DNA of 64,000 nt from Aureococcus anophagefferens. Lineage: Eukaryota > Sar > Pelagophyceae > Pelagomonadales > Pelagomonadaceae. A program made the position numbers and the translations under genes. The notes under the pieces were generated by a model. That model did no database searches. It saw only the letters and a list, made by a program, of their open reading frames with translations, and was not told the DNA's origin. Location: positions 307,446-371,445 of the forward strand of contig NW_008705562.1 in the NCBI RefSeq assembly GCF_000186865.1. Direction: 5' to 3'. Shown here piece after piece: positions 53,012-57,189 of the stretch (position 1 is its first letter; the number at the start of each line of letters is the position of its first letter).

Positions 53012-53284
53012 GGTCGCGATCTGTTACAGCTCTGATATACGCTATTGAACCAGCGGGGGGCAGGGGATGCGGCGCGAGAGACCGGGCGCGCACACGCCAA
53101 ACAGGAGCCGGGGGAGCGGGTGACTCGCCAAACCGAGGCAAAAATCTCACCTGTTGCACGACGGGCGCGACGGTGCCCTGAGGCCAGACGCGAGCTCTCC
53201 TCGACCACCACGCGCGAGAGCGGCGGCGTCGACCTCGAGTCCGGCGCGCCGACCCGGCGCGAACATCCCCCGGCGAACACCACC

Positions 53285-56200
53285 ATGCGAGAGAACGGCG
53301 GCGACGACGTCGACGTCGAGTCCGGCACGCCGAGCCGGCGCGCCCGCCCGAATCCCCTGGCGACGCTCGTCCAGGGCAACGCGACGCCGTCGAAGGTCGT
53401 GCGCGCGACGCGGAGGCTCGCGTCGACGACGGTCGAGAGAACGGCCGGCGCGCTCAACAAGGGCGTCGACCTCGTCGGCGACGCCGTCGTCGAGGGCGCG
53501 GTCGGCGCGACGGCGACGCTCGGCGGGAAGGAGCTCATCTGGAAATACCTCGACCTCATCTTCGAGGACCTGGATAAGAAGACGGTCAGCGTCTCGGACG
53601 CGGGCGTCACGATCGCCGGCCCGAGCCGCGTCGAGCGCCGCGTGGAACTCAAATCTTCGACCCGACTTCAATGTGCGCGTATGCGACAGTTTTGACGCAA
53701 GATCTTTAGCTCTGCTTCGAGAACTCGACGAGAGCGATCGATTCGTCCAGCCGAATCGACGTCGATGTGGCCGAGCGAGAGAATGTCAAAGTTTGGTCGG
53801 GACGTCCCAGCTCACCGGTTGAGTTCCACGCAGGTCAAGCAGCGCACGCTCTGCGCGCTCCTGGGCGGGTCGAGCCCGCTGCGGCGCGTCGAGCTCGGCC
53901 CGCTCGAGGTCTCGGTGCCCCTGGACGAGATCGCGACGGGCAAGGGCGACACGCCCGCGCGCCTCGCGCTGACGACGGCGTCCTGCGAGTGGCTGCCCTT
54001 CCCCGACCTGTTGCCCTACGACGAGGTCTACGAGGTGCTCTCGGCGCTCATGGACCCGCACGCCGCGGAGCTGAACCTCGTCGACGAGGCCGACGCGTCG
54101 CGCGGCGCGCGGCGGCGCTTCGACCGCGACCGGCGGGATCGGCGCGACGTCGTCGTCGAGGCCGAGCTCCGGGCCGCGCGGCCCCGGAGCGCCTACGTGC
54201 TCGACCGCCTCGAGGGCCGCGCGTTCGTCTTCCTGCTCATGGGGTTCATCGTCGTCTCTTTGACGTCGGAGCTCATCTGGCGGCGCGCGCACATCGACGA
54301 GCTCGCGCGCCTGACGATCTCGGCCTTCTTCGTCGGCGAGATCGCGGCGCGGTTGGCGCTCTACGGCGCGCTGAAGCCGCGGGGCGCGCGCCAGTTCTTC
54401 GAGGGGTGGCTGAACCGGATCGACTTTTCGGCGACGGTCCTCGACGTCGTCATCTGGTCGATCAATTTCGAGGAGCGGGCGACGGGCGCGTCGCAGTCCG
54501 CGCGCGGCGCGCGGCTCGTGCGGTTCCTGCGCGTGGGCCGCGCGATCACGCGCGTCGGCCGCGTCGCGTCGGCGTCCGCGCGCGTCGCCAAGAACGTGCT
54601 CCTCAAAAAGCGCGAGGACGAGCTGCGGCGGCTCGACGGCGTGTTGCTGACGGCGGACGAGGTGACGATCACGGCGCCGGCGCCGTCGGAGGCGCTCGTC
54701 GCGGACTGGTTCCGGTCGCTGAAGCGGAACCTCGACGGCGGCGCGCGGACGGCGGCGGCCGCGGCGGCCGGCGACGCGTCCGTCTACGTGATCCGCGACC
54801 TCAGGCTGGCGAACGCGCGGGCCGACGGCGAGCCCGCGCGCGACCTCGCGGACTGCGGCGCCGTCGTCGACCGCGACGACGTCGGCGGCGCCGTCGCGAA
54901 GTGCCTCGTGACCCGCAAGACGCTGACCGCGGGCGCCGTCGCGCTCATGGAGACCCGGGCGCCCTTCGCGGCGCTCGGCGACGCGGCCATGGCCTTCCCC
55001 GTGGACGTCGACGTCGTCCTGCACCGGCGCACGGTCGACGGCGTCCTCGCGCGCGTCGAGCTCGACGTTCGCGCGACGCGGGCCTTCGTGAAGACGCTCG
55101 CCAGCGGCGCGGCGCTCCGCGTCGCCGTCTACGGGCCCGAGCACTCGGAGCGCGAGGCATTCGCGGCGTCGTGGCTCGCCCGGTCCCTCGGCGGCGAAGC
55201 GCCGGCGGCGGGCGAGACGGCGGACGCGTGGCTGCGCCGCGCGCGGTCGCGGTCGTCCGCGGCGCTGCTCTGGGCCGTGCTCGGCGACTGGCTGCGGACC
55301 GAGGCCGCGGTCCGGTTCTTCGCGGAGCGCGACGACCGCCGCGCGGAGCAGCCCCTGCGCGAGGACGACTTCCTCAAAGCGACGTCGGACGCTGTGCCGA
55401 AATCAACCACTGTCTCAGGGGGTCCTGACCACACTTCAAACCTCTCTAGCTCGGTCAATTCGAAGTCGATTCGGCTGATTTTTGGACGAATCGATTGCTC
55501 TCATCGAGTTCTCCACGGAGATCAGAACAAGTTGCGTCCAGACTGTCGCATACGCTCACATTGAAGTCGGGTTGAATATTTGATTTGCACACAGGTCGGA
55601 CGCGGGCCTCAGGCTCGACGCGTCGGAGTACGAGGCGCTCCGGGCCGTCGCGTTCGACGGCGGCCGGCCGTCCGCGGCCAAGTTCGCCGCGGTCTGCGCG
55701 CGGGGCGACGCGTGGGTCCCGGCGGCCGCCGCGACGGCCGCGCCGCCGCGGCGGAGCGCGTTCCTCTCGACCTTCCTCGCGGGGAAGCTCCGGGCGACGA
55801 TCGCGCCGTCGGTCGACGCGGCGCTCCGATGCCTCGCGAAAAACTGGGAACCGGGCCTCTGGGCCTTCCGCGGCGCCGACGGCCTCGTAATCGAGCCCCT
55901 CGAGCTCGACGACGACGTCGTCTGCGCGCTCGTGGGCGGCGCGTCGTGCGTCCGGAACGCGAGGGTCTGTGTGCAAATCAAATCTTCAACCCGACTTCAA
56001 TGTGCGCGTATTCGAATGTTTTGACACGAGCACTTCCGCCGTGCTTCGAGAACTCACTGAGAGCAATCGATTCGTCCAAAAATCAGCCGAATCGACTTCG
56101 ATTTGACCGAGCTAGAGAATTCTGAAGTTTGGCCCCGACGTCCCAGCTCACTGGTTGATTTGCACACAGGCGAGGGTCGGCGAGATCCGCGTGGTCCTGC

Positions 56201-57189
56201 CGTCGCTCCGGGGGCTGGTCGCCGCGGACGCGCCCGTCGTCGTCGAGGTGGCGAGCCTCGCCTACGACCTCGAGCCCTTCCCGAACTTCCTCGCCGACGC
56301 GGACGCCGAGAAGCTGCTCGCGCCGCTCTTCGGCGGCGGCGGCGGCGACCGCGCGCCCTACGGGTCCAGCGATCGCCTCATCGACGGGCTCGAGGTCCAC
56401 GTCGAGCGCGTCTCGCTGCGCCAGCTGAATCCGACGGAGGCGCTGCTCCGCGCGAAGCTCGACCGGCCCGACTTCGTCGGCGGCGGCGCGCGCGCGAAGC
56501 CGAGGCACTTCCTCGCCGCGGTCTTCGAGCCGCTCGCGAAGCTGCTCAAGCGGGCGCCGGCCGACGAGGGGCCGCGGCGGCCCGCGCTCGGCGTCTCCCT
56601 GAGCGAGGTGTCGAACCGGCAGCTGTCCGACGTCGGCGCGGGCGGCTGGCGGTCGCTGTCGGCGCAGCGCGTGTCCGCGACGAACGCCGCGCGCGATTTT
56701 TCGCGGCCCGCGCGGTCGCTCCGCGAGTCGATCGAACACGGCGGCGACGCCGTCCGCGTCCACAAGCGCGTGTCCATCGCGGGCCTTGCCGTCGTCGACG
56801 TCGACGCGGCGGACAACGCCGTGCCCGTGCTCCGGTCCGCGGACCTCGAGCTCCGGCTCGTCCTGGACCGCGGCGCCGGCGACGGCGCGCTCCGCGCCGT
56901 CGACGTCGACGTCTTCGCGCCGCCGCTCCACGCGCTCAGCGCCGCGCTGCCCGTGTCGCTGTCGCTCGCGGCGAGGGTCGCGGTGGGCGGCGGCGCGCCG
57001 GCCGACGAGGCGGCCTGGCGCGAGCGCGACGCGGCGGACCGCGCGGTCGTCGCGGCCGCGCGGGAACGCTTCGCGGCCTGCGGCGCTGACGCGGGCGCCT
57101 GGGCGGCGCTCCTCGCCGACGCGAAGGCGGGCCGCGGCGACGTCTCCGCGGAGGACGCCGCGCGCTTCGAGGGCCTCGGCCTGCTGTGA
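53285..57189 (+). CDS. chorein-like lipid-transfer protein containing a voltage-sensor domain
   Basis: The model join(53285..53629, 53834..55383, 55595..55958, 56170..57189) gives 1092 residues; all three introns are family B introners. Residues ~80-200 resemble a chorein-type N-terminus (ELIWKYLDLIFEDLDKKTVS, RRVELGPLEVSVPLDEI) of the VPS13/BLTP kind. Residues ~245-360 then form four helices: S1 (AFVFLLMGFIVVSLTSELIW), S2 (FFVGEIAARLALYG), S3 (WLNRIDFSATVLDVVIW) and S4 with arginines every third residue (RGARLVRFLRVGRAITRVGR). No pore helices follow. The beta-rich scaffold resumes (DEVTI, DVDVVLHRRTVDGVLARVEL). Exons 3-4 hold a second chorein-like unit (FLSTFLAGKLRATIAPSVDA, RVGEIRVVLPSLRGLV) and DGLEVHVERVSLRQL, reminiscent of BLTP3/UHRF1BP1. 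VSD confidence is high; the scaffold assignment is moderate. Confidence 0.75.
53638..53833 (+). mobile_element. introner B6, intron 53630-53833
   Basis: This 196-bp family B element has lost part of the shared core near 53747. Octamers GTCGAGCG and GTCAAGCA (6/8) flank it. The intron is GT-AG, 204 nt. The donor-side end is mutated to CCGCG; the acceptor-side CGCAG is intact. Exons join in phase 0. Confidence 0.88.
55392..55594 (+). mobile_element. introner B7, intron 55384-55594
   Basis: This 203-bp family B element has an inverted interior. A perfect duplication GTCGGACG is at 55384-55391 and 55595-55602. The intron is GT-AG, 211 nt. Splicing opens frame 3 for exon 3 (TSDAGLRLDASEYEALRAV), which has no start codon of its own. 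Confidence 0.94.
55967..56169 (+). mobile_element. introner B8, intron 55959-56169
   Basis: This 203-bp family B element has matched ends CTGTGTGCAAATC and GATTTGCACACAG. A perfect duplication GCGAGGGT is at 55959-55966 and 56170-56177. The intron is GC-AG, 211 nt. Splicing gives CVRN|ARVGEIRVVLPSL. Confidence 0.94.

Follow-up and report, generated by a model that had tools for sequence, protein, structure and literature searches.

What does a voltage sensor control when no pore follows it? The question is raised by a gene of the pelagophyte Aureococcus anophagefferens, found at positions 53285–57189 on the forward strand of a 64,000-nucleotide stretch of genomic DNA (contig NW_008705562.1, positions 307,446 to 371,445). 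We refer to the whole stretch as the window and use its numbering throughout. In the predicted product, a single-copy membrane protein of ∼1,100 residues (1092–1104 amino acids), a voltage-sensor domain (VSD) follows closely on the first of a pair of homologous units. Our favored explanation, to which we assign a probability of about 0.38, is that a poreless VSD is coupled to a duplicated cytosolic module of a divergent chorein/RBG type, which would handle lipid at the VSD's own membrane.

The gene consists of four exons, starting with an ATG at 53285 and ending with a stop codon at 57187–57189.

53285–53641, forward strand: exon 1, the N-terminal 115 amino acids; its last 12 nucleotides (53630–53641) come from the introner of intron 1 (see below)
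53834–55383, forward strand: exon 2, the end of repeat unit 1, the voltage-sensor domain and 260 amino acids beyond it, in one frame
55595–55970, forward strand: exon 3, the start of repeat unit 2; the donor at 55971 follows the 12-nucleotide introner rule (see below), and 55959 and 55965 also keep the frame
56170–57189, forward strand: exon 4, the remainder of unit 2, the C-terminal region (residues 816–1030) and the stop codon at 57187–57189

Joining these exons with the duplicated target sites collapsed gives exactly 1092 amino acids with no internal stop, in agreement with the coordinates and the length that a sequence-only reading of the locus had put forward; the upper end of the length range is set by donor choice. 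Exon 2 was likewise found to be the single uninterrupted frame that had been claimed. GC at third codon positions is 0.96–0.99 in all coding pieces, compared with an overall GC of 0.49–0.54 in the introns; for the VSD and post-VSD pieces, whose boundaries were off by one base, the value is that of the middle position as tabulated. Because long open frames occur in all six frames of the 72% GC window DNA, a match to another sequence matters here. Such a match is provided by P0001, a 1092-amino acid protein from ENA that stands for a cluster of 12 sequences, and it extends from end to end with 1036 of 1092 residues identical and 0 gaps. Since P0001 aligns over the full length without gaps, a chance open frame is unlikely, and, judged by this alignment, the gene is real and conserved as one unit. 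Its start codon is flanked by an imperfect duplication at 53220–53342 (42 nucleotides, 81-nucleotide spacing, 88%), the upstream copy of which shares the gene's reading frame (TRESGGVDLESGAPTRR / MRENGGDDVDVESGTPSRR).

The VSD begins 40 residues past unit 1 and comprises four predicted helices, all within exon 2.

54221–54280, forward strand: S1, residues 245–264; 19-residue mean hydropathy of 2.25; matched by Pfam Ion_trans
54308–54364, forward strand: S2, residues 274–292; F281-x-x-E284-x-x-x-R288, with Glu-284 replaced by Asp in P0001
54407–54466, forward strand: S3, residues 307–326; N309-R-I-D312
54503–54574, forward strand: S4, residues 339–362; Arg-339, Arg-342, Arg-345, Arg-348 and Arg-351 at strict i+3 spacing, followed by Arg-355 and Arg-358; all seven are kept in P0001

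The Pfam family Ion_trans matches exon 2 with an E value of 2.7e-6 and 27.2 bits (curated cut-off, 25), and P0001 with 27.1 bits. An ordered signature (hydrophobic S1, F..[ED]...[RK], [NR]..D, S4) is found a single time in the six-frame translation of the window and in 1 of 20,000 exon shuffles. Together, the profile match and the signature bear out the earlier description of S1–S4 with an acidic residue in S2, an aspartate in S3, five S4 arginines at i+3 spacing and two more beyond. On its own, the five-arginine motif was not counted as evidence, since it turns up 180 times in the six frames of the window and in 233 of 20,000 shuffles. Apart from the Glu/Asp exchange in S2, the S3 aspartate and the other named VSD residues are the same in P0001. 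The pore half is absent: the Ion_trans match reaches only position 119 of the 241 in the profile, and S4 is followed by no strongly hydrophobic window that could represent S5–S6 (19-residue mean hydropathy never above 1.56), so that the claim of a missing pore also holds. Read from these features, exon 2 encodes a canonical poreless VSD.

The two homologous units are distributed over the gene as follows.

53522–54103, forward strand: repeat unit 1, residues 80–205, split by intron 1; putatively chorein-like, with a β3–β4-like motif at 53894–53971
55806–56355, forward strand: repeat unit 2, residues 703–815 (about 690–815 in the alignment with unit 1), split by intron 3; putatively chorein-like, with the motif at 56176–56250

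Comparison of unit 1 with unit 2 gives a score of 75 versus 28.6 ± 5.1, with 0 of 1000 shuffles scoring as high, and hhalign aligns the two with a P value of 1.5e-5 and a probability of 79.6%. By these alignments, the two units are true internal repeats, and the second unit of the same kind that had been proposed for exons 3–4 is a significant repeat of unit 1.

Unit 1 does not differ from P0001 at any of its 126 residues. It lies in a 183-residue identical run (residues 53–235; 53441–54193, with intron 1 inside) that has a probability of 0.00095 under uniform placement, and the rest of the protein differs from P0001 by about 6% (56 of 909 residues). The run reflects either strong constraint or a recent exchange between lineages. 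The 62 C-terminal residues are also identical to P0001.

Are the repeated units of the chorein type? We compared them with a profile built from seven VPS13/ATG2-type sequences. Decoys and background were stop-to-stop frames taken from either strand of the window and of the fetched loci; they are mostly non-coding, count overlapping loci more than once and include one bacterial locus (L014). Unit 2 (2 of 600 decoys as good) and the joint profile (6 of 600) stand out from most decoys, and they do so in the expected register. A β3–β4 motif, whose loop lengths were widened after the units had been seen and which is thus not an independent test, is present in all seven references and in exactly two places in P0001, one per unit; it occurs 0 times in 343,708 background residues, and 6 of 3000 shuffled versions of P0001 contain at least one copy. 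The C-terminal region (816–1030) weakly resembles the VPS13 stretch that follows Chorein_N (13 columns aligned; 22 of 500 decoys as good). Six pairwise comparisons set the units against the three VPS13_N genes of this genome; the two best were equaled by 28 and 16 of 1000 shuffles (scores of 41 and 46), and the other four were not significant (404 to 852 of 1000 shuffles as high).

Several results weigh against a chorein/RBG-type module driven by a voltage sensor. At E values up to 10, neither the full protein nor any of four cut pieces is matched by a chorein, VPS13_N or ATG2 family in Pfam, and the sole row for the pieces is TubZ_C_3 (E 0.17), which is under the cut-off and belongs to an unrelated family. 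That library does score VPS13_N in three genes of this genome, namely L010 (130.7 bits; cut-off, 80), L011 (35.6 bits) and L012 (21.6 bits), of which the last two are sub-cut-off. Against the VPS13/ATG2 profile, unit 1 is equaled by 53 of 600 decoys, and the hhalign probabilities range from 0.3 to 3.6% (maximum of 1.3% with the full profile, and of 3.6% when its N-terminal part was used). The region following the VSD neither matches VPS13 (equaled by 234 of 500 decoys) nor resembles the C-terminal region (44 versus 41.7 ± 7.6; 163 of 500 shuffles as high). In the latter set of comparisons, the stretches taken for unit 2 and for the segment labeled post2 share ten residues, which explains one high control score. 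The full-length AlphaFold2 model is unusable (mean pLDDT of 30.5, pTM of 0.22). The VSD modeled alone forms four helices (2–31, 36–59, 64–99 and 103–148) at a pLDDT of 50.2. Structure prediction, suggested with the sequence-only reading as a check for both a VSD and a β-groove, thus returned the four helices at low confidence and no usable model of a groove. Among sequences of solved structures, the best matches of the VSD are not significant (TPTE2, E 0.072 and 0.51; voltage-sensor phosphatase 4g7v, which we take to be Ci-VSP, E 0.32 and 0.15), and chance rows follow close behind (KIF18A, E 1.1–1.2). Finally, the sole relative, P0001, is a close one.

Three further leads were set aside. Chorein_N has a helix-strand-helix-strand order, and the same order in both units of the AlphaFold2 model was given no weight at a pLDDT of about 20–35. 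An analysis of strands by hydrophobic moment was useless, as the VPS13 controls were barely detected. SLC9C1, the top structural match of the VSD model, scored below the tool's noise level for helical bundles.

The results can also be read as a poreless VSD that drives or tethers duplicated cytosolic units of an undescribed domain, related neither to chorein nor to RBG proteins. We regard this as a serious possibility, albeit a tentative one. It is consistent with the units having no significant sequence match in Pfam, NCBIfam or the PDB, with unit 1 and the post-VSD region not being clearly distinct from decoys in the VPS13 comparisons, and with the failure of AlphaFold2 to give a usable fold. 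It does not account for the alignment of unit 2 and of the joint profile in the expected register, nor for the β3–β4 motif, which is present in both units and absent from the background, a point that is partly post hoc. From these profile comparisons, we consider the odds that the units are homologous to chorein to be about even. Of the "chorein-like" units described earlier, the homologous repeats on either side of the VSD stand, and the chorein label, which no Pfam match accompanies, is the weaker part.

How could a chorein/RBG-type module be placed under the control of a VSD? The topology of a VSD leaves both the N- and the C-terminal parts of the chain in the cytosol, so that both flanks of this one would be cytosolic. 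S4 would move with the membrane potential and, much as in voltage-sensing phosphatases, this movement would be relayed through the stretch behind S4 to the repeats in the cytosol. The repeat module would then change how it meets the membrane. Less certain is the nature of the module itself, which may be a divergent, duplicated chorein/RBG-type β-domain, binding lipid or extracting it at the membrane in which the VSD sits.

The mechanism would work without a bridge between two membranes, and a single chain of this length is unlikely to form one, because there is room for only a few β-groove domains, compared with the 12 RBG domains of VPS13A (available text of PMC7613979), and because the second cap-like copy sits inside the chain, unlike in the RBG proteins treated in that text, where the Chorein_N unit is the N-terminal cap. 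Lipid binding or extraction at the sensor's own membrane would be the simpler reading. Inter-membrane lipid transfer gated by voltage, the effector function proposed in the sequence-only reading, is possible and unproven, and the chain looks too short to span two membranes alone. The stronger version, in which a VSD set between two chorein-type domains lets the membrane potential directly control lipid extraction or transfer, seems to us rather unlikely.

The VSD might also be the relic of an ion channel that no longer senses voltage and anchors the repeat module in the membrane. In keeping with this, the VSD is no better conserved than the rest of the protein (8 of 133 residues, 6.0%, differ from P0001, compared with 0 of 126 in unit 1), and the genome offers many Ion_trans domains for recruitment. 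However, both versions retain the full set of charges that a functional sensor should have, the S2 acid changing only from Glu to Asp, and we consider a voltage-insensitive anchor unlikely. It is decidedly improbable that the VSD is itself a conductor in the manner of Hv1, passing protons or a gating-pore current, with the long cytosolic parts serving regulation: Hv1 is likewise a lone VSD (available text of PMC13095418), but S1 of P0001 lacks an acidic residue (position 261 is Ala in P0001 and Glu in the window), and S4 lacks the RxWRxxR motif given in the available text of PMC10377628, a review that also places Aureococcus among the algae without Hv genes.

The remaining alternative concerns the gene model, on which the introns bear. 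All three belong to one introner family that is dispersed through the 49-Mb genome (40 matches scored among 1695 candidate places); introns 1 and 3 have the same orientation, and intron 2 is reversed.

53642–53833, forward strand: intron 1, introner in forward orientation; target-site copies at 53630–53637 and 53834–53841, matching at 6 of 8 positions
55384–55594, forward strand: intron 2, introner in reverse orientation; target-site copies at 55384–55391 and 55595–55602, 8 of 8; donor at 55384 (GT) or 55396 (GC)
55971–56169, forward strand: intron 3, introner in forward orientation; target-site copies at 55959–55966 and 56170–56177, 8 of 8

According to the available text of PMC9860276, introners of Aureococcus sp. 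add 12 bp, of which 8 derive from the target site and 4 from the element, and thereby four residues, relative to an introner-free orthologue. In the present gene, positions 53630–53641 (target-site copy plus 4 nucleotides of the intron 1 introner) encode VERR, which is absent from P0001, and introns 2 and 3 can be read by the same 12-nucleotide rule (55384–55395 and 55959–55970). For these reasons, P0001 looks like the introner-free version of the gene, and the rule would explain the length differences between the two proteins. The gene thus carries three introners, each apparently able to add four residues relative to P0001. That the VSD exon is part of another transcript is very improbable: the gene is known here from genomic sequence alone and P0001 may itself be a predicted protein, but a single unbroken exon encodes the VSD together with part of unit 1 in one frame, P0001 has the same order with 0 gaps, and the introner rule explains the differences in length.

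Beyond P0001, protein searches (8000 scored candidates each, in which distant relatives may have been missed) gave no further relative, so that the suggested search for the same fusion yielded one close full-length version and no other. There were 0 relatives among 40 pattern matches in viral contigs. The 1 match among 117 in contigs of prokaryote genomes (L014), which looks like an arginine succinyltransferase, is a chance match to the C-terminal tail. A tblastn search of the model against the 53 fetched loci returned only L014 and L046 (E 0.18). Within its own genome, exon 2 and exon 4 find only the gene itself, and on these searches the gene appears to be single-copy with no paralogue. Seven weak rows (six for exon 3 and one for unit 1; E 0.005–2.8) were dismissed, six of them having been looked at and judged compositional.

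The VSD alone gives two weak rows in the same genome (E 0.014 and 0.107) that look like other voltage sensors. One of them, at L069 (G000:C40:32000-35500, around C40:33619-33900), shares 31% identity with the present VSD at E 0.107, and by eye its frame holds an EF-hand-like part, S1–S4 and then introner sequence. The whole genome (49 Mb) contains at least 152 Ion_trans matches; some occur four to one open frame of >2000 amino acids, pointing to a large channel repertoire, and the twelve partial matches that were read are not relatives. At L047 (G000:C27:181500-188500), a 761-amino acid open frame has a VSD-only Ion_trans match (profile positions 7–116; C27:184555-184926, reverse strand) followed by what look by eye like ankyrin repeats, perhaps another poreless VSD fusion.

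Few non-channel VSD proteins are known; the available text of PMC13095418 names the phosphatases, the sperm exchanger and TMEM266, the latter of unknown function. The present protein adds one whose effector is not a phosphatase, an exchanger or a pore, and it places a known domain in a new architecture. Whether the effector, too, is of a new kind hinges on the chorein half, which is unproven.

Voltage-sensing phosphatases, named earlier as the nearest analogy, remain so: they share the single poreless S1–S4 sensor joined to a cytosolic part and provide the best, if weak, matches among solved sequences (TPTE2 and 4g7v). In contrast to them, the present protein has no PTEN-like phosphatase domain (a Pfam search of P0001 at E values up to 10 finds only Ion_trans), carries a large unit before S1 and has homologous units on either side of the sensor. 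It also differs from SLC9C1, the VSD-regulated Na+/H+ exchanger of sperm, as Pfam detects neither a transporter nor a cyclic-nucleotide domain. With Hv1 and TMEM266 it shares a lone VSD, whereas its flanks are far longer and contain an internal repeat, and it lacks the conserved S1 aspartate and the S4 RxWRxxR of Hv1 (motifs as given in the available text of PMC10377628 and PMC13095418). Voltage-gated ion channels have the pore domain S5-P-S6, which is missing here.

On the other side of the comparison stand the RBG or bridge-like lipid transfer proteins VPS13, ATG2, SHIP164, Hobbit and Tweek. The present protein resembles them in its repeated units, in the β3–β4 motif and in a weak likeness to the Chorein_N profile that is better for unit 2. 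It differs from them in having no Pfam match, in its internal Chorein_N-like copy and in being too short for a many-domain bridge. Hobbit and Tweek resemble it further in having transmembrane helices, in their case at the N termini (available text of PMC7613979); the word "voltage" has 0 occurrences in that text. In the literature that we searched, no described protein combines a VSD with a chorein/RBG domain, as the sequence-only reading had stated. If the module is of the RBG type, lipid movement in a marine alga would be governed directly by an electrical signal. Voltage-gated lipid handling, if true, would then constitute a new class of VSD effector and, within the literature searched, the first case of an RBG-type domain being switched directly by an electrical signal.

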